A DNA stretch of 64,000 bases, from positions 83,503 to 147,502 of the forward strand of contig VXIS01000087.1 of the NCBI GenBank assembly GCA_008704415.1, written 5' to 3'. Below, one piece after another: positions 9,401 to 64,000 of this stretch. Position 1 is the stretch's first letter. Every line of letters begins with the position of its first letter. Both the position numbers and the translations under genes were made by a program. Under the pieces are notes generated by a model. It was not told the origin of the DNA. It did no database searches and saw only the letters and a program-made list of their open reading frames with translations. The stretch is from Sphaerosporella brunnea (lineage: Eukaryota; Ascomycota; Pezizomycetes; Pezizales; Pyronemataceae).

Positions 9401-12261
9401 CTACAGCTCGCCCACGGTTGCAGTCCTCAAGATTTCCTGTAGGGTATCAACAGCCGCGGCAGCCGCACGCTTGACCAACTTGCGCTCGTCCGCACTAGCC
9501 GCAACGCCGCCGGTTTTGACGACGCGTTTCTTGACGAAGTAGAGCAGGCCTCTGACCAAGTCCGTGTTCTCGGCCACCTTGCCGAACAGCGCCGAGACCT
9601 CCCACTCGTCGCCTTTTACGTCTGTGAACAGCGTGGTGAAGAAGACCTCGAGAAAGTTCTTGGTGGCGGGCTGGAGGTAGGTGAAATTCAACGTTTTGAA
9701 GATGCCGAGCTGGAGGTTGTTGCCCGCGACGAGGGAGGCGTAGAGTTTTGCGAGGTTGACGATTTTGCGGAGGCCTGATGGCTTTTTCCATGCGGCTGTG
9801 GAGCCGAGACCTTCCTCGTCGTTGTCCGAGTCGGATGCGTCGGCGTCTTTGGAAGAAGAGCCCGAGCCGTCGTCTTCGCCGAAGCGTCGGAAGTAGTCCC
9901 ACAGTGTGAATGTAAATGTCATGCGCAAAGCGTGGCTGCTGCTGCAGAGCTTTTTGGCGATGAGCGTGTAGTAGGGGTTGTAGATACCCTCTGCGGCTGC
10001 GCAGTGCAGGAGCACGCGCGGGATTTCGCGTTCTTGGGAGCGTTTTAGCCGGAGTTTTAGAAGCTTGGTGTGGGCGTCCGAGAAGTCGGTAGAGGAGAGG
10101 AGAGTGATGAAGATAGCGCGGCGGATGTCGGTGTTCATTCGGTGTTGTCGGGCAAGAACTTGTAGATCTGGCATGCCGGCATCGCCTTCGTCTTCGGAAA
10201 CATAGGCCGGGGCAACGGTTTCAGGCTCCTGTGGTGCCACGGCGGGCTTGGAGTCGGAGGCAGAGGTGCCGGCCCATGATGCTCCCACGAGCCACCACTT
10301 TCCTTTTGTCTCGACGTTTTGGATGTCGTCGAGGGCGGCACGCAGTGGCTCGGTGGCGCGGAGGTTGCGGGTGTTAAGAGAGCCGAGAAGCTTCTTCATC
10401 CGCACTGTATGCTCGGTCGTTACGACCGAGGCCGCAGTGGAGGACTTCAACCGGTTGTTTTTGAGGTTGGTTAAAGTTTCGATCATGAATTTTGTGCGAA
10501 CGCTGAGCTTTTCTAAGCCACCGACTTTGGCGATCGCGGGCTGGAGGAGGAGGACGAGGGACTTCAAGGCGGTTGGGTCATCGCTGCGGAGTTGGGGGCC
10601 GCAATCTAGAAAATATTAGCTATAGAGATTCATAGACTGGGGAACACGGGCGCTCACTTCGAACGATCTTGAGGAGAAGCTCCGTGTGCAGCTCTGTCAA
10701 CTCCGAGAGAAACATCCGGATGAAGTCGAAGATGAGGACGCAGCCCACCACTTGGAAGTTGTACAGCTCTGAGAGGAAACTCATCAGGTTGGTGCACTCC
10801 TTTCCAGCCGTAGCTGGGTCTGCGATTCCGTTCGCCTTTGTGTGTTGGCTGAGAAATTCTTCGACGATCCTCTGGACCACCGTTGCACCGACATCCGTAC
10901 CCATAATCTTGTACAATCCCGCGAGGAATCCACTGTGGAGAATGTGGTAGGTATCATTGAGCGTTGATGAATCGCACAGCGTAGCGATGAGAATTTCAGT
11001 TATTATGTTGGTAACATCAGCCCGAGGATTCGTTCGATATACTTCTTCAAAGTCATTCAACATGGCCATCAGTTTGGCCTCCGACAGCCTATTGATGAGA
11101 CCTTGAAGCTGCCGTCGCAGGCGGAGAAGGCGTTCCGAGTCGGCCATAGGAGCTTTCCGGAGCGAGGGGGGTATGTATTTGCTGGCAGGCTTCTCCTCTG
11201 ATGTCGTCGCCGTTATGCCGGGCCTGTAGGGATTTTCTCGTACACGGGGTGCTTCTTTGGTTTCCGAATCCTCTTCCGAACCCTCATCGTCATTACTCCC
11301 CTCTTTGTCCTCCTCATCCTCTTCATCCTCGTCGCTGCCATCAACACCCTCATCACCCATCTCCGAGTCCTCCTCCAAATCTCCCAGCAATTCCTCCATC
11401 ATGTCATCATCATCCTCATCGCCTTCCTCATCATCACTTTCCTCCTCACTCTCCTCCATGAGCTTCTCCATTTTCCGCTCCCTCTCATTAATCCTTTTCG
11501 CCTTCTCCTTCCGATCATCCAAATAATTGTCCTTCAACCCCTCCAACAAAAAGTCAAGCCCATCATCTTCAAACGACTTCGGCACCTTCTTGCCCTTGAT
11601 CTTGAGCTTCCTTTCTAGGTACTCAATTTCCGCATCATCCTGCGCCAGCCGGTCCTGCACAGCTTTGCTAAGCTTCTTCTTGGGCGGCTCTTCCTCTTCC
11701 TCGATGGGTTCTTCGGTGGCTTTACGCTTCTTGAGGATCGATTTCGGCTTCTCCGGCGCTGCTTCTTTCGTCTTTTTCGTCTTAGATTTCGGTTCGGGCG
11801 CAGACTCTTCTTTCTTCTTCGACTTTGACTCCTTGTCCTCTCCCTTATCGTCCGGTGGCCAAGCGGTTACCACAAGACCCTCGTCGTCGGAAACATCGAA
11901 CGGATCCACCTCGTCATCCTCCTCGCCATCACTCTCCCCACCATCCTCCTGCCTCGCGCCACGCCCGCGATGTCTCGCAACCTTCTTTTCCTGTCTCTGC
12001 TGCTTCCTTAACGTCTTCCGATCCGATTGTGGCCCTCCTCTCTTCCCTCCTCTACCCCTTGCGCCTCCTCGACCTCGACCATTTGGAGCTCCGCGATCAC
12101 CTATTGCTAGTCAGCCGAGCGCACCGGATCGCAGGGGGTGGGGAGGATGGGCACAAACCGAGATTCAGCTCCTCAAGAAGCGCTTTGGGAAGGCGAATGC
12201 CGGTTTGGCGCTGGTTTTGGTTTCGTGGCGCGGGCATGTCGTGGTCGTGGTTGCCACTCAT
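9401..12261 (-). CDS. sgd1: Sgd1/NOM1-type nucleolar MIF4G-MA3 protein, three exons
   Basis: Predicted nucleolar factor for 40S ribosome biogenesis. Exons in transcript order are 12261..12159, 12100..10658 and 10605..9401, giving 916 residues (the yeast protein is about 900). Exon 1 carries LPKALLEELNL and joins in phase 1 to an Arg/Gly-rich tract. Next come basic and very acidic low-complexity blocks (runs of E and D, residues about 115-310) and a KYIPPSLRK motif near residue 340. A MIF4G domain of helical repeats crosses intron 2, and an MA3 domain lies near residues 680-800 (RRAIFITLLSSTDF). Both introns have normal GT-AG ends, and the second joins KIVR to NCGPQLR. Nearly all of this gene lies inside the palindrome; its last 193 bp fall outside what the right arm shows. 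The left copy is the complete one. Confidence 0.85.
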
Positions 12262-14076
12262 AAGTGCTGAGGCTTAAAGGTTTTTTTATGTGCACGGGAC
12301 TACTCTAGCGTGCGCAGATGTGGTCCTGCGCACGATGTTTTTCATAATGGATCACTCGGGTAGTCTGTACGAGTCACAATGTGTTTTTAAGGTCACAGTA
12401 TAGAGACTCCCAAAAGGTTGAACCTTGCTACCATAGGTGAATTTTTTTGTTATGGCCAATCTTGAGTGTTTGCTTGGGCTGAAAATCTTGAGTCGATATC
12501 GCGGCGAATGCATATGATAGCATTGAGAAATTCTTCTGAGTTGCGGATTGCAACTAGACACCCAATCAGTGGCATTGCGAACTGCCGATGGAGGTTCTGC
12601 TCTGCCAGTCGGCTCAAATCGCTACCAGCAAAGCACTCTATGCAAAGGCATACAATACCGGGTACGAACTGCGCATCCTCCTGAGATCAAGAGTTTGCAA
12701 AGCCCTATTATTCCAGGCTCTTACATGCCATAGAGCGAGCCCACGAGTACACAGGCCGGGTAGTGTAACTGGGGGTTTTATACAACGCAGTGTGATGTGC
12801 TTTGGAATTGAAAAGGCAGAAGCTTCGAAGGCAGGTCTTTTTCATCGTCACTTAAAGAAAGAACCGATGGCCTTCGCCTTCATGGGACTCGAGAATTTAT
12901 CCTCGCCGCCACAATCGTGAAGCAATCCGTGCTTCACGATGTAGCACTCGCTTCATTTGGTAGCGCTTTGCTCGGAAATACCATGTTCCTTGGCTTGTCA
13001 GTGGCGGCTACTTTTTTAGCCACAGATGTTACCTTAGAGATTCGGTACTAAAGCAATGTGGAAAAGTGACTGCGCTCTGTGGATAAGTCACTCAGCCTCA
13101 TGGCAAAGTCACTTAGCCACATTGCCTTAGTACCGAATCTCTACGGTACACTGCTTCATACATGGTTGTCGAAGCGCATGTTTCCTTAGGTGATAATCCA
13201 TGAACGTTCGCCTGTTGGCAAACCCAGCGGCATCATATCCAACCGCCGGGCAGCGGCGATCATACATATCCTACGCGACAAAAATAACGCTTCAAAAAGA
13301 AACATCGCCCACCATCCCGAAGAAGTAAAGACCCAGCATTTCTCCGGCGGAATTAAAGTAAGCGAGCGGCCTGCACTGCCGAAACGCTCCCAAGTAAACA
13401 TCGTGAAACGAAACTGCCGTCCGTCTGGGTTCCCCGTTCCAAGTCACTCACCACGCAAATAGGGCACGCGGCTACAACAACACAGCCTCCAGCTTCAAAG
13501 GCTGCAGAAACTCCACTCCGCCCAGCGCATCGGAAAAACTTCACGTCGGAGATGGGTGTATTTTTATCTGGTTCATCTTCGTGCAAATGAGATTCACGCG
13601 CCAGCGCCAAGCTCCACAAAGCTGAGACGCCAAAGGGAACCAGGAATTGGTGTATCATATGCTGTCCTTCCCCAGAGCCATCTCCTATCTATCTCGAATA
13701 GATCGCGGGAAGAGAGGCGACCCGGTGATTTTCGTCGCCTGCCGTTTCAGCAGTTTCTGGGATGGTAAGCCAGGCAAGGTGATGAGAGGCCGGGAACTTG
13801 ATCGACGCTGTGAAGAGTCGTCATATTTGTATCCTCCGTTTCCCCCATCCGGACTTGCAACCTTTCATTTTCACCACCTCGCCACCTCCATCCATCTCGA
13901 CAGATAAACGATCCTCGACGGACTTTTTTTTCTTCTTCCTTTTTGTTTCTTCACTTCTTCTTGCGGACTCTGCAAGCCGGACGGTCGTTTCTTGACGAAC
14001 ACCAATTTTTTTCTCGACCTTTGTTTTTACGAAGAACGAAAACCGCATCGACTGCATCAAAAAAAAAAAAAAAAAA
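12262..14076. other. Intergenic region with one MITE
   Basis: No gene is supported between the Sgd1 start and the small membrane-protein gene. It contains the 109 bp TIR element at 13035-13143. Hydrophobic open stretches on the minus strand near 13190-13660 have no start-to-stop gene model I can defend. The last 200 bp become C/T-rich and end in a 19-A run at 14059-14077, immediately before the next ATG. Confidence 0.5.
13035..13143. mobile_element. 109 bp TA-flanked MITE-like foldback element
   Basis: Both ends carry the same inverted sequence: TAGAGATTCGGTACTAA on the left, its complement on the right. Similarity extends inward for about 40 bp each side (AAGCAATGTGG against AGGCAATGTGG), leaving a short loop. 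The outermost TA on each side fits a TA target duplication, as in Tc1/mariner-derived MITEs. It has no coding capacity. Confidence 0.7.
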
Positions 14077-14655
14077 ATGCAAAACAAAATGTACACGCTG
14101 ATCCTTCCCTCCAAAAACACTCCGCTCCACACGCCAGACACGGCCTCAACAGATCTCGACACGCCTTCACTAAACCTCCTTTCTCTTTCACACCAATTCA
14201 TCTCCACCACCCCGACCCCACTAAAAACGCATTTCTTCCGGATGCCTGCGCCACTGCCATCACCAGGTCTCACTCCGCCTCCCTACGAACCCGCAAACCC
14301 TTACCGCGACCTCACCCTGCAGGACGTCCCATTGACCCCCGCCCCCGTTCGCATTGGCCGCTTCGCCCCACCACGTTTCTCTTCCCGTCTGCGCAGCCTT
14401 GTTCAGCAGCGTCCGCGGGGGCCACTCCGCGTATACCTCGTTCCCCCCACGGTGAATGAGAAGCAGCAGTTGCGACGGCATGCGTGGGGGATTCCGACGG
14501 TGTTGACGGCTGGGTCAGCGGCGTGGGTGGAGACGGCGGGGATTGAGAGAAGCACTGCGGAGCAACGGGCTAGGATGTTGTTTGCGGCGATTACCATTGC
14601 GGTGGTGTTTCTGGTGGGCCTTGGTTGGGGATTGGGCCAGGTGTGGGGTTTGTAA
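14077..14655 (+). CDS. Hypothetical tail-anchored protein with a PPPY motif
   Basis: A single-exon frame of 192 residues, not recognised as a named family. The N-terminal half is Thr/Pro-rich and contains TPPPYEPANPYRDL near residues 65-80; PPxY motifs bind WW domains, for example of Rsp5/Nedd4 ubiquitin ligases. A more conserved-looking middle (RIGRFAPPRFSSRLRSLVQQ, then PLRVYLVPPTVNEKQQLRRH) precedes one hydrophobic segment at the extreme C-terminus (MLFAAITIAVVFLVGLGWGL). This suggests a tail-anchored membrane protein facing the cytosol. ATG 14077 follows directly after a 19-A run; ATG 14089 is an alternative start. The mirror copy has 18 A but the same coding sequence. A role as a ubiquitin-ligase adaptor is inference only. 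Confidence 0.5.
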   Translation: MQNKMYTLILPSKNTPLHTPDTASTDLDTPSLNLLSLSHQFISTTPTPLKTHFFRMPAPLPSPGLTPPPYEPANPYRDLTLQDVPLTPAPVRIGRFAPPRFSSRLRSLVQQRPRGPLRVYLVPPTVNEKQQLRRHAWGIPTVLTAGSAAWVETAGIERSTAEQRARMLFAAITIAVVFLVGLGWGLGQVWGL

Positions 14656-15636
14656 AATGCCGGTGTGCGGTTGCGGCGGAGATACGGGAAGGATTGTACA
14701 TTCAGGATTTCCTTTTTTCCCCCTTTGTTTTGTGGTTTTGCATATGCGCGGCGTTTTGCTCTCTTTTCTTGCATGCCTAATGGCTGAACGGATGAATGGA
14801 TTGATACACGGCGGGACCTCTTACGACGGATGGGATATATACAAGGGGAGAAGGAAAAGGGTGGGCTTCATGTATATTTTTGAGGCGGCTTTCATGATGG
14901 CGAAGCTAAGGAGGTGAGGACCAAAGATCTTTGTCGAATAAATTGATCCTATTGCTCCTTTACATCTAGAGATTTACAGCTCCTACCGTATCGTCTGTGT
15001 CTTGAGCAACGCGGGTGGGAGTGTTGCCAATCAAAAAGTTAATTTCTAAAGACTCGCGCGCGGGCGATGCTGTATCTAATTTTATTTATAGCAGCAGAAC
15101 CATTACAGTGCCGGCGTTGTCGGTCGTCCATCGCCCATAGTAAACTCCCTCGGAGTATCCTAATAGCTCAGGATCTCGATCTTCATTCTATTGGTAGGCC
15201 GGCACCGGGTGCTTTTCACAGGGGCATCGCGCCGTATCTTCCGGTGTTTGTCCGCTACCGGCACCATTTTTGGACCGTACCGGGACGGGGAGATGCCGGA
15301 GTTGCCATTGCGCATGCCGCTCCCCGCCTTTTGATCATCATTAAAGTTGCGTACAAACCCAAATTGCGACCTCGACGTCCGATCCCACCAATAGAAAACC
15401 CTCGACACCCGCAACCTTACCACCCCACCCCTCCGGCCCGCGTTGCTTAAGACTCAGACGATACGGTATGTGATATCCACCTACATGAATGTCCGAGACT
15501 TGTCATGGCTGCAAAGTGCAAACAGTGAACAGCGCCAAAAGCAATCTGGCCAGGTGTTACAGCGCTTTTGGCGTCTACGGCAGACGGCAGAATTAGGTAT
15601 TCATCATTCCTACATACATCAAAGACTCTCCACTTC
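14656..15636. other. Intergenic region largely filled by a TIR element
   Basis: It holds the 3' flank of the tail-anchored protein gene, then the 485 bp TIR element (14984-15468), then the 3' flank of the minus-strand secreted-protein gene. No other gene is supported. Confidence 0.55.
14984..15468. mobile_element. 485 bp TA-flanked TIR element, non-autonomous
   Basis: The left end TACCGTATCGTCTG and the right end (complement TACCGTATCGTCTG) form imperfect terminal inverted repeats of about 32 bp that continue to GCAACGCGGG with two mismatches. TA at both outer edges fits a TA target site, as in Tc1/mariner/pogo relatives. The interior has an open frame of about 127 codons that resembles no transposase. 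The mirror copy at 58136-58619 is one base shorter. Confidence 0.7.
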
Positions 15637-16334
15637 CTATACCACCTCATTAACCACGGCCGTGATCGCTACGCAGTCTGGGGCTACACCCAAACAGTCA
15701 GCAAACCTCTCCTCGTTCGATGGCCATAGGAACCAAACTCACAGCTATCGTCCGCAGCCTTAACCCACAAACCATACTGTCCGCCTTTGTTCGAATCGGG
15801 GTAAACACAGAACGCTATCACCTCGAAGTCAGTCCTGGATTACTTTTTTTTCCCTTCGCCTCGGAACTCACTAAGTCCTTGGTCACTTTCGGCTGGGACA
15901 AGAACTACATGTGCACCCGGCTTTCCGTTGATACAAGCGTAGCGCGCGTTGTAGGTGGCCGGAGTTTTCGGATTCTCCTTGAAGGCAACTTCTCGGAAGC
16001 GGGCCCTGTCTTTTGGCTCGACGATGAAGGCCTTGCTGCCGCTCCCGCCAAGCACCAGACTTCCGCTGGCAAGCGTGGTGTTTAGCTGCTTCCCGTACGA
16101 AAACAGGCGACGTCGAAGCTGCCCTTGCCCGTGCGCGGCAGGAACGTGAACGTCTGGCCGTCGATCTTGGGATTCCCCGAGTTCGCCGCATACAGCGTGA
16201 ACGGATTCGTGATGCTGGTGAAGATTACCATCGGCACTATGCACTCCTGCGGAGTCGTGGTCGCCGGCGTCGGGGGCCGCGAGGGAAGAGATGCTCAGCG
16301 AGAGGAGAGTGAGGAGCGTGGTGGCCGCCTTCAT
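15637..16334 (-). pseudogene. Secreted cysteine protein gene, left copy with two frameshifts
   Basis: Mirror of the intact gene at 57268-57964; see that entry for the protein. Start codon 16334, stop 15637-15639. Relative to the right copy there is one extra C in a C run just after the signal peptide (about 16275) and one missing G near 16108. Together these put about 56 codons in the wrong frame and then restore it. The out-of-frame segment loses the first cysteine and the FTLYAANSG region. Because the two shifts compensate and sit in short homopolymers, I read them as consensus errors in this arm, not as a real pseudogene. Confidence 0.6.
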
Positions 16335-16406
16335 GATTGCTGCTGCTGCTGGTGGTTTGAGCTCGCGGTTGGGTTGGCGCTGGGGGATGGAGGCCGGCGG
16401 GTGCGT

Positions 16407-16416
16407 TATATATATA
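16407..16416 (-). promoter_or_regulatory. TATA box of the secreted-protein gene (left copy)
   Basis: A perfect TATATATATA run 73 bp upstream of the start codon at 16334, a normal spacing for a fungal TATA plus short leader. The identical run lies at 57186-57195 in the right arm. Confidence 0.5.
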
Positions 16417-17288
16417 CCATTTGCGCTTTGAGGCCGAGCTGGCTGTGTCTCGGAGGAGAGGTCAGATATAGACACTGTAGGCGTGTGCAGATGTTTGGCA
16501 TAAACTAATACAGGCAGTTGGGGTGACACAAGCCTGCCGGCCCACGTCGTTGCTGCATGATTACTCTTGGTACTGCTGTCGATCCGGGGCCGCAGACCGA
16601 CGCTTCTACATACTATGATTAGCGAGCCAACGGCCTGGGGAATACGAAGCAGGTCTCTGAAGTGGAAAGTTGGGAAAGGACGGAACCCACGATCGTCCTC
16701 GGCTCGTATGTAAAAAAAAAAAAAAACTAAACAACAAAGCATGAAAAGCCAAGAAGGGCTGGGAAGATACACGTCTTCTCGATTGCTATTGGGTCAGCCT
16801 TTAAGCGAAATCCGACGAATTATCGAGGGAGAACAATTAGCTGCAATATAAACCGACCTATCATCTGTCGATATCGCCTGCAAAGTATATTATTGGCGTA
16901 CGTATCGCAGCCCAGTAAAATTAGTAAGTACTTAGGAAGAGCCACCCGCTGTCAGTACTGCAGGGTGTGACATGTAATACCAGTTCCTGCATGCAGATAC
17001 GATGGCGAGCGTGATATGCTGTGAGCTGGTGATTAATATTGCAGCTATTCCGGGCCAATGGCATGATTGCTATGGTCCAGCAGCTGAAGATACATGGTAT
17101 AAAAAGCACGTCGCACGGGACACTCCTCGCAACAATTCGCGCAATATTGAGACGCGTATTTACTCTACGTACTCTTCGTCTGACCGACAGCATCTGGGAC
17201 TCCGGCCCGTGGAACCCGAGCCTGGTATGCGGGTGTCAACCCTCCACTGGGCCGCAGCCAGTCTGTAGGCATACCTCGACATTGTGCT

Positions 17289-19407: not shown

Positions 19408-19456
19408 TGTGGTGGTGGTGGTAGTGGTGGTGGTGGTGGTGGTGGTGGTGGTGGTG
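19408..19456 (+). repeat. GGT trinucleotide microsatellite
   Basis: Near-perfect GGT/GTG run with a single TAG interruption, non-coding. Mirror copy as CCA repeat near 54147-54195. Confidence 0.85.
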
Positions 19457-22473: not shown

Positions 22474-22791
22474 TTGCTTTTCCTTCGCGGAGATTGGCTC
22501 TTCCAGGACGGGAAAACGGAGTGCCCTGAAGTTTACTTCAGGGTATTAGTGCAAATACGAAATGTATGGCAACGAGTGAGAAAGGATGAGGAGTGGGTTA
22601 GGGGTTTTCTACTGGCAATGCAACGAGGGATGTACCAGCTCCAGCCAATATTTCGTAGGTAGAAGGAGAAGGCCACCCCACATATCCTGCGGTTTCTGCG
22701 AGATGCTAAGGTTGGACAGTCCGTGGTGGAGGGGGATGAGTTCATCATCATCGTTCCGGATATGGTGAAGGGTCAGATGGGGGGAAGGTGA
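22474..22791 (+). pseudogene. Unrecognised coding-like frame interrupted by one TAG
   Basis: One reading frame runs through about 105 codons with gene-like composition (WLFQDGKTECPEVYFRVL, RKDEEWVRGFLLAMQRGMYQ). It meets TAG at 22660 and continues in the same frame with KEKATPHILRFLRDAKVGQ and VVEGDEFIIIVPDMVKG to TGA at 22789. No ATG opens the frame; it is open only from about 22456. It could be 3' exons of an undetected gene, with the TAG lying in or at the end of an intron, or a decayed gene. Both arms carry the same TAG, so it is not an obvious sequencing slip. Function unknown. Confidence 0.3.
22524..22543. repeat. Perfect 20 bp short palindrome
   Basis: CCCTGAAGT and its complement ACTTCAGGG are separated by TT. 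It lies inside the amber-interrupted frame downstream of gpd. It could be a hairpin or a dimeric binding site, or chance. Mirror copy at 51060-51079. Confidence 0.6.
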
Positions 22792-23525
22792 CCTGGCCCC
22801 AGTGGCCATGGCTTTTGTTTCTGCTGTTTACGGACCCGTTTAAATTTTTCCTCCTGGTAGTTGGGTGGCCGCAGTTGACCCATGAGGTTGTATCAATAAG
22901 GCGGCGGCGGGGACGGGTAGGGGGGTCGCGGTCGCATACGCACAATAAACTTTGGTTACAAACTTTCACACGAGTCCTTTTGGATAAAAGTGGAGAAACA
23001 TACCGTAGCATGCTCGAGGTATCTATCGTGACTATTTGTGTTCTTACTATAACTGCTGGTAGTAGTGAGTAAGTTGTGAGTTTTTTGCATTGCCATACAG
23101 CTATGATGATTCCTTCCAAATACATTGCATGTACATGCGCCCCACCAACTACAGCTTCAGCTGCAGCGATAGAACTCTTTGAATACCTCGCCGTCGTGGG
23201 CGCTATATTCCACTCGGCCTGAGGCTGGTCTCGTGTGATCAAGTTCCTGGAGTTCAAGTTGAGCATTTCTCCTCCGCTCGCTCCGTCACGCCTCCGTGGG
23301 TTAAACGTCATTCTCTGGTGACCCTTTTGGCGCCTGCAGGCTACCCACTGGCGGGTTTATGCGCCGGTATCAGACGTCCATTGGTCATCAATGAGCAGAA
23401 TCAATGCAGCATTGGCTCGGATGGAGCCTGGTTACGATGCTGCAAGCTGCCGGACAGCGTGAGGAGGTACCGTAACAACTTCCGGGTCGTGTGATCTATC
23501 GCCCTTGCCGTAAGTAGTCTACACT

Positions 23526-23540
23526 GCAAAAAAACAAAAA
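23526..23540 (-). terminator. RNA polymerase III terminator of the 5S gene
   Basis: The transcribed strand reads TTTTTGTTTTTTT immediately after the 5S 3' end. Confidence 0.75.
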
Positions 23541-23657
23541 CTACAATACGAGGGATTCCCATGTGGTCACCCACCATAGTACTAACCTCGCGATACACTG
23601 CTTAACTAGAGCTGAGCGGACGGGAAGCCGTGGTTTCAGTGTTCTATGACCGTAGCT
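23541..23657 (-). rRNA. 5S ribosomal RNA gene
   Basis: The minus strand matches the ascomycete 5S consensus along its length: the conserved GGCTTCCCGTCCGCTCAGC block, the internal control region, GAGGTTAGTACT, and GGGTGACCACATGGGAATCC. The length is about 117 nt. A T-rich terminator (TTTTTGTTTTTTT on the transcribed strand) follows directly. A lone 5S gene away from the rDNA array is the dispersed arrangement known in Neurospora, Aspergillus and relatives. The exact ends are estimated by alignment to the remembered consensus. Confidence 0.9.
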
Positions 23658-24603
23658 GATTGTTTTCCTCTTACCGCAAATTTCATAATACCATTTTATG
23701 AGTGAACACACGAGATCATTCGCGGAACGGTAAGCTGCCACGTAACCTTTCTTCTTGCGCCACATGTACTGTATGCTTCAGGGCCGTACTGAGCCATTGC
23801 GAGTTTTTCCGGAGTGACAACAAAGGGGGCGAGTGCTAGATTGTGATTTAGTGTTGAGGGCGCTTTTATGCCCCGTAAATTTTGTGAAATTTGCAGGGTA
23901 CCCCGCGAAAAATAATTCATCTACAATACCCCCCGTCGTAGGCCACCGCAGTCGGCACATCGCCTAGCCTGTTGCGTCTCATCACTACCAGATCACCAAC
24001 CGTCCCCTCTACCACCGCCGTCACATCACCACCCGTCGTTGCACCACCCGCAACACAATCCATGGAGGGCGCTCAGGATGCTACTGCGCCCAGCATGGCA
24101 GCCGGCCCGAACGGACTGGTTGTTTGCAGCATACTCCGAATTTAAAGCCGCGGTGCGTCGCTGGTCAGTGTCTGCATATTTTGAGACTCACTACGAGAAA
24201 ATCAGAAAAGACTGTAAACGTTGTTCCTTTCGTGTGCGTGCTACGCTCGGGCCAGAGCTGAGGGTGCGTATACAGCCTGTGTGGGGGCGGCGAAGTGAAG
24301 CAATGCCAGCAAGTTCGAGTCCCTAAAGCAAGCTTCCCCGACTATTGCAGCGGTGGATAGGGAGACAACACCCAAAGGTATTGTCAAGGCAGTACCGCAC
24401 AAGCGCCAACACAAGATTTCATACCAGGCTGCACATAAAGTCTTACGTTCTTCGCAAGGGACGGACATTGGAGCAGAGCAAGAGCAGTTTCAACATGGGA
24501 GGTCTTGAGTTTCGACCCTGTCACCTTTCGTTTCCGCAGTTTTTTTGCCCCTCAGTATGCACAGACTCGGGGTGGAGAGAGTGGGAAATTATTTGGCTTT
24601 GTA

Positions 24604-24985
24604 CTAGTATGTTGCACGATAAAATACGGGGTATCGTAGAAAGTATTTTTTATAATCCATCACTCGCACTGCCGGATAAAATAGTAGATATAATGGACAC
24701 CGGCTGTGCGCTTTAACCCAACAGTTCCGAGATGATAGCCGCCTCCTATCTAGTAGGACTTTACCTGGGGCAGCGTCCGGTATGTCAGATCGGTGTTTGG
24801 GGTTCCGGGCCCGCCAGACTACCGCGCATGTCATTTGGCCATCCGTCAGACGGGAGCCGTCTGTCCAGCCAGTGTTGAGGTCGTTGGTCCACGTCGGAGT
24901 CAACAGGGCAACGCTCTCCTTGGTCAGGACAACCAGGCCGCGGAGTCATCCGGTTCAAGCTGGGCAGCCTGCCTGAGGCATTCGG
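24604..24985 (-). mobile_element. Degraded non-LTR retrotransposon (LINE) fragment, RNase H region
   Basis: The minus strand encodes a stretch reading WTDGSRLTDGQMTCAVVWR, which resembles the first strand and first catalytic Asp of the RNase H domain in fungal Tad/LINE elements. It is preceded by TKESVALLTPTW and followed by unrelated-looking sequence. No reverse transcriptase or complete RNase H is present and the arms differ by small indels, so this is a relic at most. The call rests on one motif. Confidence 0.4.
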
Positions 24986-26100
24986 CCAAGCTTGGTTGAG
25001 CTTAAACGCCAGTGCGGTTCAGAATTTGGAATCTACTGCCACTGTCGGATGTGTCATCTACTCCTGCACTGAGATCCATCTTTTGGGAGTCTGGCGTCCA
25101 CTGGACCTAATCCAGAGACCCAGAGCTAGGTGATACCTTGTGAAGTTTTTCATGCTCCAAGGGGTTGAGAGTCGCTGAGTGATAAACCGTGTCTTAACAA
25201 CAGTCGCCGCAATCGTCACAAGAAAAAACAATTGCCACTTATACACGTCACAGCACATCCCAATTGTGACTAGCAACGGACTTTGTGGAAAACCGCACTG
25301 TTGGCAACCACGACCTTTTTCATGTGCACACATGAAGAATTTGCCAATCCCCACCAATAGCTAAGTTGCGTCATATATACCATACATTTTCGAGATTCAA
25401 CTTCTTCCGGGATGGTGAGACAAACTAGTGTTGGCAGTATGGAAAATACCGGCAGAAATGTATTGGGTTCTGGACTAGATAATGGGCGCCTTTCGCACTG
25501 CCACTTCTAACGAGCAGACAGCCGCGCGGAAGCTAGCTGGCGCAAGGAAGGCCAACGCCTGGCTTCTATAGCTAAAGAGTATTGGGACATCCGGCTCGAC
25601 AAAAACCACCAAGGGGTTCCTTTTTTCTACCGCTGTCCATCGATCGAGCCGCGGACAGCTTACTCTGTGCGCTAATAGCATGCTTATAGAGTGCGTATAG
25701 CAAGAAAGCGCCAGAAGCACAGCCAGCAGTGGAGCCTTTCTTGTATGAAGGGAATCTCAAATGTGGGGGTGTTTGAAATCCGGAGCCGTTCCGATGTGTT
25801 CCATTGAGGATATGGCAACTGAGGCCAGTCCCCTTACGTGGTCAACTAATCGTTACCAGCACTTAGGACCAGGGCGTATTCGTTTCTGATGTCTAAACTG
25901 CTCGGGGGTATAAAAGTTCCAATCGGAAATGGATCTGGGACGAAAAATAACCGCAGCGGAACAGCGCTATCGACCTATAATGCAGATGTGCAGACAACCC
26001 AACTTCACGAGATAGTGCGCTTAGGTCGCAGGGCTCAGGTATCAGCCCTATCAACCCTTCCTCGCATGTAAATAGACACCCCGCTGTGAACCACAATAGA

Positions 26101-26230
26101 CCCACACCTCTTCATACCTCTTCATACCTGTTCATACCTCTTCAAACCTCTTCAAACCTCTTCATACCTCTTCATATCTCTTCATATCTCTTCACACCTC
26201 TTCACACCTCTTCATACCTCTTCCTACTTC
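26101..26230 (+). repeat. Ten-base minisatellite upstream of the terpene synthase
   Basis: About twelve tandem units of TTCATACCTC with variants (TTCAAACCTC, TTCATATCTC, TTCACACCTC), in exact 10 bp register. It ends 113 bp before the start codon at 26344, so it lies in the promoter or 5' UTR. The mirror copy at about 47373-47503 has one extra base in one unit. Confidence 0.95.
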
Positions 26231-26343
26231 GTACTATTAATGTACTAACAATACACTCACACCTCGCCATCTTACCTACACCAGCTGCAGTTCATTAATT
26301 CACATCACACCTATTCATAAGCTGCATTTCATATATTCACAAG

Positions 26344-27823
26344 ATGGCTGTCGGTACTCCGCAACAGAAGGCTCTTTCATTAATTAAAGGTCAAAAGCTC
26401 CTCCTCCCAAATCTTTATGATGCTCTGCCTGGCTGGGATGGTTTCCAGGGAGGAGATTGCAGCAAAAGAGTCAACAACGCCGTTGAATCCTGGACGCAGA
26501 GGTTAGTTTACATCGATATCAGACAAATGGAGGCGCAAGACTAATTCTATGTTGTTTACAGCTGGACGAACTGCGCTTCAATCCTCAAAACAGCCCGGGC
26601 TGGCAGATTTGGTCTCCTTGCAAGGTGCTTCTATCCCGATGCCGAGGAAGAGGCGGTTTTCGACATGGCTTGCTATCTTGTCTGGGTAATAACCCACCAC
26701 GCGATCCCTTCCAGAATTTTCCGGATTACCGATTCTAATAGTTGTGAGTTTAGATTTTCGTATGGGACGACAAATTCGATAAAAGTGTGACATCCATCGA
26801 GTTCGGAGCGGCGAAACAACTCCAAGATGAGACATTGCGTCTTCTGAATCATCTTTTCAACGATGCACCTTGGCAAGATCCGAAGACACTGGATGCTGTC
26901 AATCGTGGCTTCTTTCCCATATGTGCTAAAATCGCCGCGAGAAGTGCATCAGGTATGTTTTGCTTCCGTGGTGCAAGATTGGAGTGTTGCTTACGGGGGT
27001 TTTTTTCTGGCAGAGGCACGCAAACGCATTTTGCATGATCTCGAAGCGTTTGTCGACAGCGTCACTGACTGGTTTCGTCGCGACGACGGTAGCATGCCGA
27101 CCGTGGCGGAACACTACGCTAACCGTGACCTGAATGCTGGCGTTAGACCTACAATTGCACTGATCGAGTAAGTGGCATAACGACATGTCATTCGGAAGCC
27201 TGGATATCTAAGAGAAAACGGTAGGTATTGCTATGGGTTGGACATTCCTTCGTCGATAATGGAGCACGAGTCCTTGCAAGAAATCAAAGAAAGGGCTACA
27301 GAGATTGTCATGATGTACGTACTTCTACCCCGGCCCATAAATTGGCAATTCTAATCATCATGCAGCGCCAATGACCTCGCTTCAATACGACCTGAGATAG
27401 TCTGTATTCCTTTCGAAATCGTTGCCACTGACTCTGGGGAGCTAACTCCAATCACTAAAAGACAGAAGGAAGGGTTGGAAACATTGTCGCTGTTCTCGCT
27501 TACAACGAAGGCATGAGTGCTCAGGAAGCAATGGACCACGCTTTTACACTGCTTCAAAAAGCACATGCCGCGTTCGAGGCTGCTGAGCGCCGCCTGCCGC
27601 TGCCATCTGGAGACGCCGCGGTCGATCAGGATGTTCGGAAGTTTGTGCTGGGTTGCAAGCATGTTTGTACTGGCAACATTCATTGGAGGTACGGAGACAC
27701 TCCTATCTTCATTTTTTTTTGTTGAGTAGATACTAATTAGTCTGCACGTGTAGTTACAATAGCTACAGATACCACGGAGAGGACCCTGTTCGCGAGAAGG
27801 GAAAGATCGTCATCCAGCTTTGA
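26344..27823 (+). CDS. Class I terpene synthase (sesquiterpene cyclase type), eight exons
   Basis: Predicted to ionise a prenyl diphosphate, probably farnesyl diphosphate, and cyclise it to a sesquiterpene; the product cannot be read from sequence. Exons: 26344..26501, 26562..26685, 26754..26952, 27014..27167, 27225..27314, 27366..27399, 27462..27688, 27754..27823, giving 351 residues. All junctions are in frame. Visible hallmarks: the aspartate-rich motif DDKFD at residues 99-103, the NSE triad NDLASIRPE at 244-252 with N244, S248 and E252, a pyrophosphate-sensor Arg at 198 exactly 46 residues upstream, and the C-terminal RY pair at 334-335. No prenyltransferase domain is fused. No P450 or other tailoring gene lies nearby, so it stands alone. 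The upstream decamer repeat may affect expression. The splice site after residue 253 (27400..27461) is the least certain. Confidence 0.9.
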
Positions 27824-30339
27824 TCATACATAATCGCACTCATGGGCTGCTTGAGATATATATAGGGTTGGGCAACGTTTTAATATAATATAATATACAT
27901 AGATTGATGATTTTATATCCGCTTTCGATCCTCGAGCTCCCGTGAAGAACGCTGGGTTGCATCACGTCCGGGCTGAGCACGATGCAAAACGAGTGATTGC
28001 TAAAGTATGTGATGGGATAAGAGATTATCTTATAGAGAGCGACTACACGAATTCGTCTCCTTCTGTTTCGCAGCATCCACGCACTTTTTGCTTCCATGGA
28101 CCCATAGGCTTCAATTTTCTTCCAAAAACAGGTACTGCTTCCCGCTGTCGCACAATACAACTGCGTTATAATCGGGGTACAAACAATGATAGGGACATTT
28201 ACTATACTTCCTCAACCTTCTGTGGCGACACGTAGCGACCATTGAATAAAATGAAAGTTGGCAGTGTCAGAATGACAGAGTGAGAGTTTTAAAAATGATT
28301 ATTATCTGGCGTTCAATTGTTTACTTCCAGCGATGATAAGGAGTGCCCTCAAGACAATTTAGCGCGAAGCAACGGGTAGTCACGTGATATGATTCGAGTG
28401 ATCGTTGGTGAGCCGAATCCACTTGCCTGGACCAATCACATCACTCTTGCATCACTCCAGAGCATCTTAGGCATCAGCGAAGAAATATGGTGTACTCCTG
28501 GTTGCTCTCCTGGCGCTTAGACCGTGTTCGATCGTACTCATTTGAAGGATGAAAACTTGATTGATCCAGAGGAGGACGACATCTGTTTGCTCGGACTCCA
28601 CTGCCAAAACCGAGTACATCCCTCACAGCCAGGAAGTTCATCCTGCTAGAGGCAGCCCTCGAATATGGTAAGCGGTGCAAAGTGAGTGGTCAGCAGCCCC
28701 AATGTTTGTCCCCAGAACCATGCGAGTGTTTTCTGGTTTGGGCGTGGAATTTGCGAATCTACTTTCCTTCGAAGATTACCGCACTTTTGGTGAAGACAAA
28801 AAGGGCGTCGTGCTTTGTTTTGTTATGGCTTAAGTATTTCAAAGACGATGAACAGTCTAGCATCGGCGGATTTCTTAAGTAGACCTATCCATTCGTTCCG
28901 AGGCGCTTGGAGGCGTAAGGCTTTCGACGGCATGATCGCTGAACACGATCGTGGCGTGGCGTTCAGGACCTAAACGCGCCGATTGAAGAACAGCAACGCT
29001 TAATTCTGGAGGGCCCGAGGCATGATGCCAGTGTTGACTGAGCGGGAGGTGTGTTTATGGAAGCCTTGTTCTAATGAGCGGAAACACGAATGGCTGTGGG
29101 GTTTTGGGAACTCACCGGATCACGCGACCCACCGCTTTATATCCCGAGATCGCGGCGCGCAACATCTGCTGGGACGAAGTCGACAGACGGCTGTGGCTGC
29201 TGGACTTGCAGGCACTCGAGCGGTGGATGTCAGGGTCAGGCACGTTCATGCGTGAGGAGTCGCTATTGTGAATATCTGGTGGGAGGAGGATATGATTCAT
29301 CTGAGGCAGCGCACCGGAATTGTGGGTTGACATAGCTAAGGTTCTTTTTTTTTTGACACTTCGCAGTCGATGTTGCGTTTGGTTATCCCCGCTGCCGTTT
29401 GTTGGTTTATTCGGGGGGATGCAATTAACTCTCCTTTCAACAGCATGCTCTCATTCATCTACATCCTTCCTAGTTGCGGAATCAATCACATACGTGCAAG
29501 CTCCCAGAAACTCCCGCGCCGCACCTTCCAGCTAACCAATCGCCAGTCCGTCCTGCGTCCATTTAGGCCGGCCATGCAGCTTCACCACTGGCTGCTACTC
29601 GGGGAGTGTCCCGACATCCTAGGTTTGGCACGCTGCTATCGTTCAACTCGAAGGAACCGTCCAAGCCCGGCATGCGGGCGTGGTCAACCTCCATTGCCTC
29701 TCATGATTTGTCGCCACCGCTGGAGCCACGGGTTGAGAGTTGATTGATCCCGGCGCGGTATGGCATGCATGGCGCAGGGTGTTTTACTGCGCAGAACTGA
29801 CTTCGGATAACCCTAACCCTTCGTGTGCTCGCCGCTGGCAATTGCCCACAATGGCACCGACGCGGTCGAGATGCGGTTGACGACGTACAGCGTGTTACGC
29901 TCCACGACCGAACGAGAAGAGATTCCAATTTCATTGATCATTTAACAGTGATGATGCATCCATTTATTTGCATACAGTGCATGCATGGCGCTCATTGGCC
30001 GCTCGGCACATTCCGTCGGAGAGAGCTAAACCCCGCATCTGCGGCACCTCAATCGACAACTGCAGCACTCTCACCAACCACCGTCTTGTGCTCTTTGTCC
30101 CTTTACTTCGCTGCTGCTGCAATTCCCCCCGCTTCAAGCCCTTCCCCCCACCCACCCCCACATCATTGGCTGCCCTGGCGAAACCCTTCTTCACCCTCCT
30201 TTCTTATATCTCCTTCCTCGTCCTCTTGCTTTCTATCGTCTTCACCCTGGCGCCTGTTGCACGCCTCTTTTTCGGACGACTCACACCAGTAAGTGCTAGA
30301 AACGCTTTCTACCGGTCACGACTGTTGTCCACCACCGCT
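27824..30339. other. 2.5 kb region between terpene synthase and oligopeptidase
   Basis: No gene is supported. Two coding-like scraps occur on the + strand: near 28700-28880, and at 29074-29271 (LYPEIAARNICWDEVDRRLW, then LERWMSGSGTFM). They lie in different frames, with stops between. A telomere-like double CCCTAACCC at 29812-29820 is too short to be a telomere. The last 300 bp are C/T-rich leader of the oligopeptidase gene and contain a GTAAGT near 30291 that could start a 5' UTR intron. Confidence 0.45.
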
Positions 30340-32722
30340 ATGACATACCCGACACCCCCGCCCGCTCCGCAGTTCACGCACACTCCGGAGTCTGTCCTGT
30401 CTACCACCCATCGCCTCATCGGTGCTTCGCGTGCCGTCCAGGACAAAATCGCCAAAGATGTTACTCCCGAGGCAGCTACCTACGGCAATGTCGTAGAGCT
30501 CCTTGCTCGCGATGAGAACGTGATGGGCCTCGAGTCTTCAATCATCGGCTTCTACCAATACGTCAGCACCGAGAAAGAGCTCCGGGATGCTAGCAGCGAA
30601 GCTGAAAAGCTCCTTGATGTACGTCGTCCAGCTACCCGGGAATGAACAGGGCTGATGCGCGCACTCCAGGAATTCGGCATTGAATCGTCTATGCGTGAGG
30701 ACATCTTCAAGCTCGTCTCAGCCGTCTACAAGTCCAACGAGAAGAAGCCCATCGACAAAAGCCCCGAAGCCATCCGGGTGCTCGAAAAGATGAACGAAGA
30801 ATATGAGCGCAATGGATTGGGGCTCAACGAGAAGGACCGCGCTAGATTCAAGGATATCAAGAAGGAATTGTCGACGCTAGGCATTGAATTCTCGAAGCGG
30901 CTAAACGAGGAGAACGGCGGTATCTGGTTTACGCCTGAGGAGCTCAAGGGTGTCCCAGAGGATGTGCTCGAAGGACTGAAGAAGGGAGAGGGCGAGAACG
31001 AAGGAAAGCTGTTCTTGACCTTCAAGTACACCGATCTCTTCCCCACTATGAAGTACGCGGTCAACCCGGAGACTCGCAAGAAGGTGCGATATCTTGATTC
31101 TGGTGGTTTCTGCTTAAGGCTAACTCTCAGCAGGTATTTTTGGGCAATGAAAACAAGTGCAATGAGAACGTAGAGCTCTTCCGCAAAGCGATGAAGCTCA
31201 GAGACGAGAAGGCTCGCCTGCTAGGCTTCAAGTCCCACGCCCAGTTCCAACTAGCTACCAAGATGGCCAAGTCTCCTCAAAAGGTGCTGGGGTTTTTGAC
31301 CGATCTACGTGCGAGACTTACCCCAGGAGGAAAGGAGGAAATTCATGGCCTGAGGGCCCTGAAGAAGCAGGACCTCAAGGAGATCGGCTTGCAGGACGAC
31401 GGAAAGTACTATCTGTGGGACCACAGGTGTGTTTTTCTTCAATGCCACTCTATGCTCTCTGTAACTGACAGTCGCAGGTACTATGACCGTCTTCTCCTGG
31501 AGAAGAAGTACCAGCTTGACTCCCAGAAGATCGCTGAATATTTCCCCTTGAAGCACACGGTCGATGGAATGCTCAAGATATTCGAGTCCCTGTTCGGTCT
31601 TGAATTCGTTGAGGTTACCGACGAGAGCAAGAACGTGTGGCACCCGGACACGAAGCAGTACCGTGTTTACAACGAAAAGCCCGCGGATGGCAGTGAGCAA
31701 ACCTTCGTCGGTTGGCTCTACTTGGATCTGCACCCCAGGGAAGGAAAGTACGGTCACGCCGCCAACTTCAACCTCCAACCTGGTTTCACGGACGAGACCG
31801 GCAAACGCCACTACCCCGCCACCGCCCTGGTGTGCAATTTCTCTAAGCCCACGCCCACCAAGCCCTCTCTGCTAAAGCATGATGAAGTGGTCACCCTATT
31901 CCACGAATTGGGTCACGGTATTCACGATCTTGTCGCTATTACCAACTACTCCAGGTTCCACGGCACAAATGTTGTTAGGGACTTCGTTGAGGCCCCATCT
32001 CAGATGCTAGAGGTACGTTTAGAGCCTCCAATTCATGTCTGGTTAGATGTTGACGCATTGAGCAGAACTGGTGCTGGACGGTGTCAGAGCTGACGTCGCT
32101 CTCGAGTCACTATGAGACTGGAGAGAAGATCCCAGAAGACATGGTTAAGAACATCATCAGAACCAAGAACGTTAACGCGGCTCTTTTCAACCTCCGTCAG
32201 CTGTGCGTTTAACTACATATACCCTTCCTTCCACGTTTGCTTACTCATGTCCCCTTTTGCAGCCACTTCGCCTTCTATGACATGAAGGTGCACAACCTCG
32301 AACAGCCTGAGGACGCCGAGACGATTGACCCTACCGTTGAGTACAACAAGCTCAGAACTGAGATCACCATGCTCGACCCGCCAGAGGGATCGGGCGACGA
32401 TTTCGGTCATGGAGAGGCCACTTTTGGACACCTTATGGGTGGTTATGATGCTGGTATGTTCAGTATGTTCTTCGATGGAGGTTGAAACTAACAGGTGAAA
32501 GGATACTACGGATATCTTTGGTCCCAGGTTTTCAGCACCGACATGTTCTACACTGCGTTCAAGAAGTCTCCAATGGATGGATTGATCGGAAGGAGATACA
32601 GGCACACCGTGCTCGAGAAGGGTGGAAGCAGGGATGAGATGGAGAGCCTTAAGGAGTTCCTGGGACGCGAGCCCAACAGTGATGCGTTCTTTGAGGACTT
32701 GGGATTGGGAAAGAAGGAGTAG
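30340..32722 (+). CDS. M3-family zinc oligopeptidase (saccharolysin/thimet type), seven exons
   Basis: Predicted cytosolic (possibly partly mitochondrial) zinc peptidase that degrades short peptides released by the proteasome and other proteases; relative of yeast Prd1. Exons: 30340..30618, 30670..31083, 31134..31426, 31478..32012, 32066..32202, 32263..32453, 32502..32722, giving 689 residues (yeast Prd1 is about 712). The zinc motif HELGH is at 471-475, with the third ligand Glu at 500 in DFVEAPSQ. The conserved GGYDAGYYGYLWSQVF is formed by the last splice junction, which fixes the 3' site after GTGAAAG. The N-terminal part is the helical lid typical of M3 peptidases. The first ATG with this N-terminus is 30340; an upstream in-frame hydrophobic stretch could only be used if no leader intron exists. 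Confidence 0.92.
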
Positions 32723-32830
32723 GGGGGCTTCTATTCATCTTCATTGCTGTTCGTGTTACCGCCGCGAGATTCGTTAAGTGAATTGCGTTGCGGAGTTGGT
32801 TATACATACTTAAGCTTTCAACATGAATAT

Positions 32831-39900: not shown

Positions 39901-40732
39901 GCATGGGCGTCGTCCTCGAGAATATACCCAAAGTTAGGCCACCTACAAGGAGTATCCAACAACAGCCTCTTCTTTCCAACCAACTCAGCGCTCTTCGCCA
40001 GCACCTGCTGATGGCGCTCATTCCCGCCTGCACCCGAGCCGCATGAAGCATCATCATCTCCCCCTGTACATCCTCAGTGTATGTATCTGCAGTTTCAGTC
40101 CCAGTCCTACTTAGCGCCGCACACAGTTACCAAGCTCAGCGCTCCCAAAGCTTCTCCGCCTCCTGGCCAGCATTGGCAAAGTGCAGTGTCAGCGAGTGAT
40201 ATTCTGTGACTGTTGGATGTGTGAGGCAATAAGTAAACACAACGATTATGAGTGGTAATAAGCGAACCTCAGTGGGGAAGTAAAACCGCAGGTACATAAA
40301 AATTACCTTAATTAGACATTATATAAGTGACAGCCTTCTCCCCGCCGAACTCCCCAGCCTCGACATCAATCTTGGCCTTCGATCGTTGCCAACTAGACCG
40401 TTGCTATCGAATATATAGGTCACCATCCTCTGTTCTGTCCATTGGATATGCGTACAGGTGGCTGTTTAAATTTATTGCTATCCCCTACAGTGAAAGTGAG
40501 CTACAACACGGTAAAGTCTTACGTAATGAAGGGTCCATTGGGCCATCACCCGTGTCATTTAGCTGTATCCGGCACTTTCAACACTGCGGACATCACTATT
40601 CATTCATATGCCGTCACTCGGACCAACCAGCCAAAAATTGAGGTCAGAAGGCTAAAAGAGGAACTTTTGGGTGAAAGCAACCGATGTGAGTGGAGGGACA
40701 CGTGAAGCAGAAGCAAGGGAAAAAAAAGATAA
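36937..40732. other. Inner right arm, mirror of 32912-36814
   Basis: Same content as the left counterpart, with no recognised gene. It is the most divergent part of the palindrome. The A-rich runs of the left arm are collapsed (36443-36479 becomes a short CAGAGAG stretch; 34087-34120 becomes a short T run at 39551-39560). The GC-rich block at 37440-37700 also differs by substitutions. Confidence 0.5.
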
Positions 40733-40813
40733 CGACAACCACAGGATTCGAACCTGTGCGGGCGAAACCCATCAGATTCGAGTCTGACTCCTTAACCACT
40801 CGGACAGATTGTC
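40733..40813 (-). tRNA. tRNA-Ser(CGA), mirror copy with altered anticodon loop
   Basis: Mirror of 32831-32911. Two opposite homopolymer changes occur: the run after the anticodon is CGAAT instead of CGAAAT (one A lost from the anticodon loop), and GGGTTC becomes GGGTTTC in the variable arm. Total length stays 81. An anticodon loop shortened to six bases would not be functional, so this is more likely a consensus error than a real variant. Confidence 0.8.
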
Positions 40814-40920
40814 ATATTCATGTTGAAAGCTTAAGTATGTATAACCAACTCCGCAACGCAATTCACTTAACGAATCTCGCGGCGGTAACACGAACAGCAA
40901 TGAAGATGAATAGAAGCCCC

Positions 40921-49945: not shown

Positions 49946-50062
49946 AGCTACGGTCATAGAACACTGAAACCACGGCTTCCCGTCCGCTCAGCTCTAGTTA
50001 AGCAGTGTATCGCGAGGTTAGTACTATGGTGGGTGACCACATGGGAATCCCTCGTATTGTAG
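49946..50062 (+). rRNA. 5S ribosomal RNA gene, mirror copy
   Basis: Identical in sequence to the left copy (23541-23657), including the GGCTTCCCGTCCGCTCAGC block and the downstream TTTTTGTTTTTTT terminator. Confidence 0.9.
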
Positions 50063-50811
50063 TTTTTGTTTTTTTGCAGTGTAGACTACTTACGGCAAGG
50101 GCGATAGATCACACGACCCGGAAGTTGTTACGGTACCTCCTCACGCTGTCCGGCAGCTTGCAGCATCGTAACCAGGCTCCATCCGAGCCAATGCTGCATT
50201 GATTCTGCTCATTGATGACCAATGGACGTCTGATACCGGCGCATAAACCCGCCAGTGGGTAGCCTGCAGGCGCCAAAAGGGTCACCAGAGAATGACGTTT
50301 AACCCACGGAGGCGTGACGGAGCGAGCGGAGGAGAAATGCTCAACTTGAACTCCAGGAACTTGATCACACGAGACCAGCCTCAGGCCGAGTGGAATATAG
50401 CGCCCACGACGGCGAGGTATTCAAAGAGTTCTATCGCTGCAGCTGAAGCTGTAGTTGGTGGGGCGCATGTACATGCAATGTATTTGGAAGGAATCATCAT
50501 AGCTGTATGGCAATGCAAAAAACTCACAACTTACTCACTACTACCAGCAGTTATAGTAAGAACACAAATAGTCACGATAGATACCTCGAGCATGCTACGG
50601 TATGTTTCTCCACTTTTATCCAAAAGGACTCGTGTGAAAGTTTGTAACCAAAGTTTATTGTGCGTATGCGACCGCGACCCCCCTACCCGTCCCCGCCGCC
50701 GCCTTATTGATACAACCTCATGGGTCAACTGCGGCCACCCAACTACCAGGAGGAAAAATTTAAACGGGTCCGTAAACAGCAGAAACAAAAGCCATGGCCA
50801 CTGGGGCCAGG

Positions 50812-51509: not shown

Positions 51510-52886
<1,377 letters not shown>

Positions 52887-61340: not shown

Positions 61341-64000
61341 ATGAGTGGCAACCACGACCACGACATGCCCGCGCCACGAAACCAAAACCAGCGCCAAACC
61401 GGCATTCGCCTTCCCAAAGCGCTTCTTGAGGAGCTGAATCTCGGTTTGTGCCCATCCTCCCCACCCCCTGCGATCCGGTGCGCTCGGCTGACTAGCAATA
61501 GGTGATCGCGGAGCTCCAAATGGTCGAGGTCGAGGAGGCGCAAGGGGTAGAGGAGGGAAGAGAGGAGGGCCACAATCGGATCGGAAGACGTTAAGGAAGC
61601 AGCAGAGACAGGAAAAGAAGGTTGCGAGACATCGCGGGCGTGGCGCGAGGCAGGAGGATGGTGGGGAGAGTGATGGCGAGGAGGATGACGAGGTGGATCC
61701 GTTCGATGTTTCCGACGACGAGGGTCTTGTGGTAACCGCTTGGCCACCGGACGATAAGGGAGAGGACAAGGAGTCAAAGTCGAAGAAGAAAGAAGAGTCT
61801 GCGCCCGAACCGAAATCTAAGACGAAAAAGACGAAAGAAGCAGCGCCGGAGAAGCCGAAATCGATCCTCAAGAAGCGTAAAGCCACCGAAGAACCCATCG
61901 AGGAAGAGGAAGAGCCGCCCAAGAAGAAGCTTAGCAAAGCTGTGCAGGACCGGCTGGCGCAGGATGATGCGGAAATTGAGTACCTAGAAAGGAAGCTCAA
62001 GATCAAGGGCAAGAAGGTGCCGAAGTCGTTTGAAGATGATGGGCTTGACTTTTTGTTGGAGGGGTTGAAGGACAATTATTTGGATGATCGGAAGGAGAAG
62101 GCGAAAAGGATTAATGAGAGGGAGCGGAAAATGGAGAAGCTCATGGAGGAGAGTGAGGAGGAAAGTGATGATGAGGAAGGCGATGAGGATGATGATGACA
62201 TGATGGAGGAATTGCTGGGAGATTTGGAGGAGGACTCGGAGATGGGTGATGAGGGTGTTGATGGCAGCGACGAGGATGAAGAGGATGAGGAGGACAAAGA
62301 GGGGAGTAATGACGATGAGGGTTCGGAAGAGGATTCGGAAACCAAAGAAGCACCCCGTGTACGAGAAAATCCCTACAGGCCCGGCATAACGGCGACGACA
62401 TCAGAGGAGAAGCCTGCCAGCAAATACATACCCCCCTCGCTCCGGAAAGCTCCTATGGCCGACTCGGAACGCCTTCTCCGCCTGCGACGGCAGCTTCAAG
62501 GTCTCATCAATAGGCTGTCGGAGGCCAAACTGATGGCCATGTTGAATGACTTTGAAGAAGTATATCGAACGAATCCTCGGGCTGATGTTACCAACATAAT
62601 AACTGAAATTCTCATCGCTACGCTGTGCGATTCATCAACGCTCAATGATACCTACCACATTCTCCACAGTGGATTCCTCGCGGGATTGTACAAGATTATG
62701 GGTACGGATGTCGGTGCAACGGTGGTCCAGAGGATCGTCGAAGAATTTCTCAGCCAACACACAAAGGCGAACGGAATCGCAGACCCAGCTACGGCTGGAA
62801 AGGAGTGCACCAACCTGATGAGTTTCCTCTCAGAGCTGTACAACTTCCAAGTGGTGGGCTGCGTCCTCATCTTCGACTTCATCCGGATGTTTCTCTCGGA
62901 GTTGACAGAGCTGCACACGGAGCTTCTCCTCAAGATCGTTCGAAGTGAGCGCCCGTGTTCCCCAGTCTATGAATCTCTATAGCTAATATTTTCTAGATTG
63001 CGGCCCCCAACTCCGCAGCGATGACCCAACCGCCTTGAAGTCCCTCGTCCTCCTCCTCCAGCCCGCGATCGCCAAAGTCGGTGGCTTAGAAAAGCTCAGC
63101 GTTCGCACAAAATTCATGATCGAAACTTTAACCAACCTCAAAAACAACCGGTTGAAGTCCTCCACTGCGGCCTCGGTCGTAACGACCGAGCATACAGTGC
63201 GGATGAAGAAGCTTCTCGGCTCTCTTAACACCCGCAACCTCCGCGCCACCGAGCCACTGCGTGCCGCCCTCGACGACATCCAAAACGTCGAGACAAAAGG
63301 AAAGTGGTGGCTCGTGGGAGCATCATGGGCCGGCACCTCTGCCTCCGACTCCAAGCCCGCCGTGGCACCACAGGAGCCTGAAACCGTTGCCCCGGCCTAT
63401 GTTTCCGAAGACGAAGGCGATGCCGGCATGCCAGATCTACAAGTTCTTGCCCGACAACACCGAATGAACACCGACATCCGCCGCGCTATCTTCATCACTC
63501 TCCTCTCCTCTACCGACTTCTCGGACGCCCACACCAAGCTTCTAAAACTCCGGCTAAAACGCTCCCAAGAACGCGAAATCCCGCGCGTGCTCCTGCACTG
63601 CGCAGCCGCAGAGGGTATCTACAACCCCTACTACACGCTCATCGCCAAAAAGCTCTGCAGCAGCAGCCACGCTTTGCGCATGACATTTACATTCACACTG
63701 TGGGACTACTTCCGACGCTTCGGCGAAGACGACGGCTCGGGCTCTTCTTCCAAAGACGCCGACGCATCCGACTCGGACAACGCGAGGAAGGTCTCGGCTC
63801 CACAGCCGCATGGAAAAGCCATCAGGCCTCCGCAAAATCGTCAACCTCGCAAAACTCTACGCTCCCTCGTCGCGGCAACAACCTCCAGCTCGGCATCTTC
63901 AAAAACGTGAATTCACCTACTCCAGCCCGCCACAAGAACTTTCTCGAGTCTTCTTCACCACGCTGTCACAGACGTAACAAGGCGACGAGTGGGAGGTCTC
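61341..64000 (+). CDS. sgd1: Sgd1/NOM1-type gene, mirror copy, 3' frameshifted and cut by the window
   Basis: Exons 61341..61443 and 61502..62944 are identical to the left copy, and exon 3 starts at 62997. The frame holds until about 63780, where AACGACGAGG has become AACGCGAGG, one base lost. From there to the window end single-base losses are frequent (for example CTGTCACAGACGTAACAAGG against CTGTTCACAGACGTAAAAGG), and the MA3-to-C-terminal part is unreadable. The stop codon lies beyond 64000. The left copy is the reference. Confidence 0.8.

Follow-up and report, generated by a model that had tools for sequence, protein, structure and literature searches.

The window analysed here, a 64,000-nucleotide stretch corresponding to positions 83503-147502 of contig C627 in an assembly of 50.57 Mb and 640 contigs, contains a giant palindrome. 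Comparison of the window with its own reverse strand by megablast revealed two inverted matches. The outer match pairs 9594-36444 with 64000-37267 over 26,883 columns at 99.26% identity (18 mismatches and 181 gap letters), and the inner match pairs 36479-36814 with 37260-36937 over 338 columns at 93.8% identity (5 mismatches and 16 gap letters). The left, interior arm (9594-36814, forward strand), which is continuous with positions 1-9593 and with 83.5 kb of further contig, is followed by a 122-bp spacer (36815-36936), the gap between the inverted matches that marks the turning point, and by the right, terminal arm (36937-64000, reverse strand), an inverted copy with homopolymer losses. An inverted match of 27 kb is far beyond chance. 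The first-pass annotation had described everything from 9594 to 36814 as recurring in mirror order to the end of the window, which is borne out by the megablast arms and by the mirrored order of the 5S rRNA and tRNA-Ser genes. C627 is 147,502 bp long and its last base is base 64000 of the window; the right arm therefore stops there because the contig itself stops, and not merely the window. Such an inverted arm, reaching the contig end with no flank beyond it, is one mark of a technical fold-back. Since nothing follows the right arm, the sole evidence for the second copy is one terminal stretch.

The genes held twice allow the two arms to be judged as copies. The 5S rRNA gene lies at 23538-23657 on the reverse strand and again at 49946-50065 on the forward strand. 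The left copy of tRNA-Ser(CGA) is intact (32830-32912, forward strand, 57.6 bits), whereas its mirror copy (40732-40814, reverse strand) is damaged, scoring 48.3 bits and lacking a valid anticodon. At the outer end of the left arm, a NOM1/Sgd1-like gene with MA3 and MIF4G domains occupies two open frames (9401-11909, reverse strand) and is open to its end, whereas its mirror copy, which lies at the end of the contig in the right arm, loses the frame near mirrored position 9800. We compared both copies with six homologs, of which three match the MIF4G part only and do so equally well in both arms. Among the MIF4G homologs found for this gene, the best identity is 65%, and the top-ranked one shows 61%. 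With the three full-length homologs, the alignment of the left copy reaches residues 745-747 of 749-751, while that of the right copy halts at residues 700-716, approximately 200-270 bases short of the contig end and close to single-base losses. Because the intact tRNA-Ser and the intact NOM1/Sgd1-like frame are both found on the left only, the left copy is taken as right and the right copy as wrong. This judgment draws on these two genes, the second at the outer end of the arm, and uses no gene near the turn. The left arm also carries an open frame of peptidase family M3 (31140-32093), and a neighboring frame at 29968-30645 has three single-base losses in its right-arm mirror. A dispersed repeat of approximately 200 bp in two parts (34671-34880) has relatives of 73-88% identity on 14 other contigs; an Rfam search with this repeat gave no match.

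The differences between the arms were counted as events in a MAFFT alignment, and the counts depend on the alignment: MAFFT gives 49 substitutions where megablast gives 23 mismatches for the same arms. By MAFFT, the arms differ by 193 events, comprising 116 losses and 28 gains in the right arm plus the 49 substitutions. Losses thus outnumber gains in the right arm by 116 to 28 (binomial p = 6e-14). Among the single-base losses, 95 of 104 fall in homopolymer runs, which hold 46% of the bases, and the loss rate per run in the right arm grows with run length, being 0.06% for single bases and 8% for five-base runs. Of the substitutions, 16 are transitions and 33 are transversions; 42 of the 49 lie within five columns of another difference. 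The events are also unevenly placed. The inner 1.2 kb, beyond left-arm position 35594, holds 82 of the 193, making 35594-38200 (right boundary approximate) the zone of peak difference around the turn, and the outermost 0.3 kb, before position 9900, holds 13. The clustering of homopolymer losses noticed in the first-pass annotation is therefore confirmed by these counts. Two A-rich runs (34088-34124 and 36444-36484), of a kind common to many contigs, are shorter in the right arm by 19 and 28 bases, respectively, some of them not A.

Overall, the right arm of C627 is a faulty copy with a sequencing-type error spectrum, and errors of this type concentrated in one arm are a further mark of a technical fold-back. 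The turn and the contig end appear to resemble raw or thinly covered consensus, and the middle appears well polished. A real and very recent inverted duplication, arising by sister-chromatid fold-back fusion in a breakage-fusion-bridge cycle or by fold-back replication, would have the chromosome continue as its own mirror. The difference-free stretches between the arms, which reach 5.4 kb, would suit such an event, but a real duplication should leave arms of equal quality that differ mostly by substitutions. Instead, 144 of the 193 events are indels, mainly losses in one arm. In its large inverted duplication and its short spacer, the C627 palindrome is similar to the fold-back inversions of breakage-fusion-bridge cycles; unlike it, a real one should show equally good arms and no recurrence at several contig ends.

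Recurrence within the same assembly, another mark of a technical fold-back, is what we found. At least five further contigs (C5, C451, C257, C96, and C125) are palindromic, with arms of approximately 2 to 16 kb, so that among the six known cases, C627 included, the shortest arms, of about 2 kb, are those of C125 and the longest, of 27 kb, those of C627. In all six, the outer arm extends precisely to an end of its contig: to base 134810 of 134810 in C5, to base 93514 of 93514 in C96, whose outermost part has 94% identity, and to base 1 in C451, C257, and C125. C5, C451, and C257 were traced from mirrored repeat pairs with identical scores in a search with the inner arm, and all three proved to be palindromes. 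Opposite-strand 5S or tRNA pairs on one contig gave two palindromes among eight candidates (C96 and C125); the other six, on C25, C32, C12, C92, C360, and C617, are not palindromes. The arms of C257 were compared in pieces (bases 1-6500, 12501-16500, and 22501-30500) and those of C96 over several short pieces. Among the 99 contigs listed, at least six are palindromic; the sample is biased, and the figure is a minimum that does not take in further pairs, such as those on C48, C52, C127, C446, C69, C225, C209, C64, C177, C82, C235, C613, and C1. Nor is the worse copy always the terminal one. Over the outer part of C257, letters are missing from the interior arm in 35 events versus 14 for the terminal arm, and in C451, with its messy centre, in 43 versus 5, although the outer 4.1 kb of C451 alone gives 0 versus 5. 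The corresponding missing-letter events in C5 are 3 in the interior arm and 7 in the terminal arm.

The arrangement of these other contigs, each cut at the contig end, argues against a real duplication. To retain that explanation, the inverted duplication, very young and 27 kb or more in length, would have to be the product of a fold-back process active at several genomic sites, the assembler would have to have broken at outer ends that reads could not cross, and uneven polishing would have to have produced the one-sided errors, a combination that we consider very improbable.

Two of the turning points carry remnants of a PacBio adapter. The centres were scored against a sequence taken to be that of the SMRTbell adapter. 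In C5, a 37-column match begins four bases past the interior arm and scores 54, against a shuffled mean of 20.9; in C451, the second half of the adapter is matched near the centre with a score of 39, against a shuffled mean of 20.2. These scores rank first and second among 887 tiles from the window and the scanned loci, the next being 34. The C451 match is weaker on its own, as it includes a GTT repeat, and its position near the centre adds weight. More than 200 T-rich, low-complexity bases lie between the adapter remnant and the terminal arm of C5 (C5:127409-127678) and are probably raw read noise. An adapter at the turn is thus seen in two of the five sister palindromes. In C257 and C125, inspection of the letters by eye shows a turn that takes 1-3 nt and falls on short self-complementary motifs, which leaves no room for an adapter. 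No adapter was found at the C96 centre, where adapter scores over 5 kb are 24 and 20. A scan of the whole assembly for the adapter core with up to three mismatches and no indels gave 0 matches, as did the control; the C5 and C451 remnants are invisible to such a scan because both carry indels. Perhaps, and this is a guess, screening had removed clean adapters before the assembly was released. Adapter remnants at the turns of two other palindromes speak against a real duplication, and together with the rule that these arms end at the contig end they make it unlikely for C627 as well.

The 122-bp spacer of C627 itself contains no recognisable adapter. Eight PacBio, ONT, and Illumina sequences were tested on both strands, with a best p of 0.06 over 16 tests, and the SMRTbell adapter reaches a best score of 16 against a shuffled mean of approximately 15. 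A partial match to the ONT bottom adapter, noticed by eye, was dropped on the basis of these tests, none of which was better than p = 0.06 over 16. The spacer matched nowhere else in the genome search and could be native loop sequence. Searches for a genomic continuation past the turn with 36600-37150 and 33500-36500, which leave 36501-36599 in neither query, matched C627 only, barring short dispersed or A-rich repeats; the lack of any contig running on beyond the turn among the matches to these queries would also be explained by a real duplication. At the other palindromes, the centres vary in length and sequence. C96 has an unpaired centre of 1.17 kb (C96:76660-77829), and genome searches with the middle 1 kb of this loop and with the C257 centre matched their own contigs only.

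These centres also bear on whether the contig ends in a covalently closed hairpin, with reads running around a hairpin telomere onto the other strand. Such a chromosome end would place a palindrome at the contig end with nothing beyond it, as is seen. However, a closed hairpin end should have a self-complementary centre with a minimal loop, and the 122-bp centre of C627 is unpaired, its self-complementarity being matched by 33% of 1000 shuffles and hence no more than chance. Moreover, the genome has TTAGGG arrays, some of them at contig starts (for instance C244 and C363), and the differing lengths and sequences of the centres likewise tell against a hairpin end. We regard a hairpin end as the least credible of the explanations, and as scarcely credible at all.

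Taken together, the evidence indicates, with a probability of roughly 0.96, that the giant palindrome is a sequencing or assembly fold-back artefact at a contig end and not a feature of the chromosome. The first-pass annotation had leaned toward a technical join because of the homopolymer losses, and that leaning is now supported by the stop at the contig end, by at least five contigs of the same kind, two of them with adapter remnants, and by the damage to the tRNA and to coding sequence in the right arm. The fold-back in C627 most likely came from a PacBio continuous-long-read library. If such continuous long reads were used, one molecule would have been read along one strand and then back along the other without being split. 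The assembler would have taken the resulting palindromic read as the final piece of C627, thereby repeating the terminal 27 kb in inverted orientation. The right arm would have been made by one or a few reads, and polishing would afterwards have rendered most of it identical to the left arm. The true genome, as far as it is assembled, would then end near 36814-36936. For C627, the route may have been a missed adapter, a hairpin-ended template without an adapter, or an amplification fold-back.

A fold-back artefact of such kind is already known. Warris et al. (2018, PMC6218980) trace palindromic reads to SMRTbell adaptors that are missed or absent, and state that such reads can affect de novo assembly. 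Missed-adapter reads resemble the present palindromes in holding an inverted second copy of their own sequence, and the adapter remnants at the C5 and C451 centres agree with this origin; the C627 palindrome differs in that its 122-bp spacer has no recognisable adapter. The same paper deals with palindromic chimeras induced by amplification, which are inverted copies without adapter. Whole-genome amplification chimeras, in place of missed adapters, would likewise be an artefact and would differ solely in the stage that gave rise to the fold-back. The adapter-free palindromes fit the kind treated there (PMC6218980): C257 and C125 turn at short inverted repeats, and C627 and C96 have longer unpaired centres. 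Unlike such chimeras, though, C5 and C451 carry adapters at their centres, which points to library preparation or read splitting and shows that at least some of the palindromes are missed adapters. Amplification appears a possible but doubtful source, and its share is counted within the probability given above. The turns of C257 and C125 fit fold-back priming, whether in vitro or in vivo, and in vivo priming would also suit a real duplication. Nanopore reads offer another parallel: Spealman et al. (2020, PMC7229812) find that base-calling accuracy falls in inverted duplicates on nanopores. The reduced accuracy is similar, whereas the adapter evidence in this assembly points to PacBio. Elsewhere, PMC6304105 describes the patching of reads to correct for missed adapters and for strand jumps by the polymerase, and PMC8495745 gives chimera rates.

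Accordingly, the right arm should be discarded before annotation and given no biological weight. As at least six contigs of the assembly carry such ends, the genes there are held twice, and duplicated genes in this genome need care. The genes of C627 that are held twice include those for 5S rRNA and tRNA-Ser, the NOM1/Sgd1-like gene, and the peptidase M3 frame, and some of the second copies resemble false pseudogenes. When public assemblies are mined for palindromes or inverted duplications, the first check should be whether an arm stops at a contig end.
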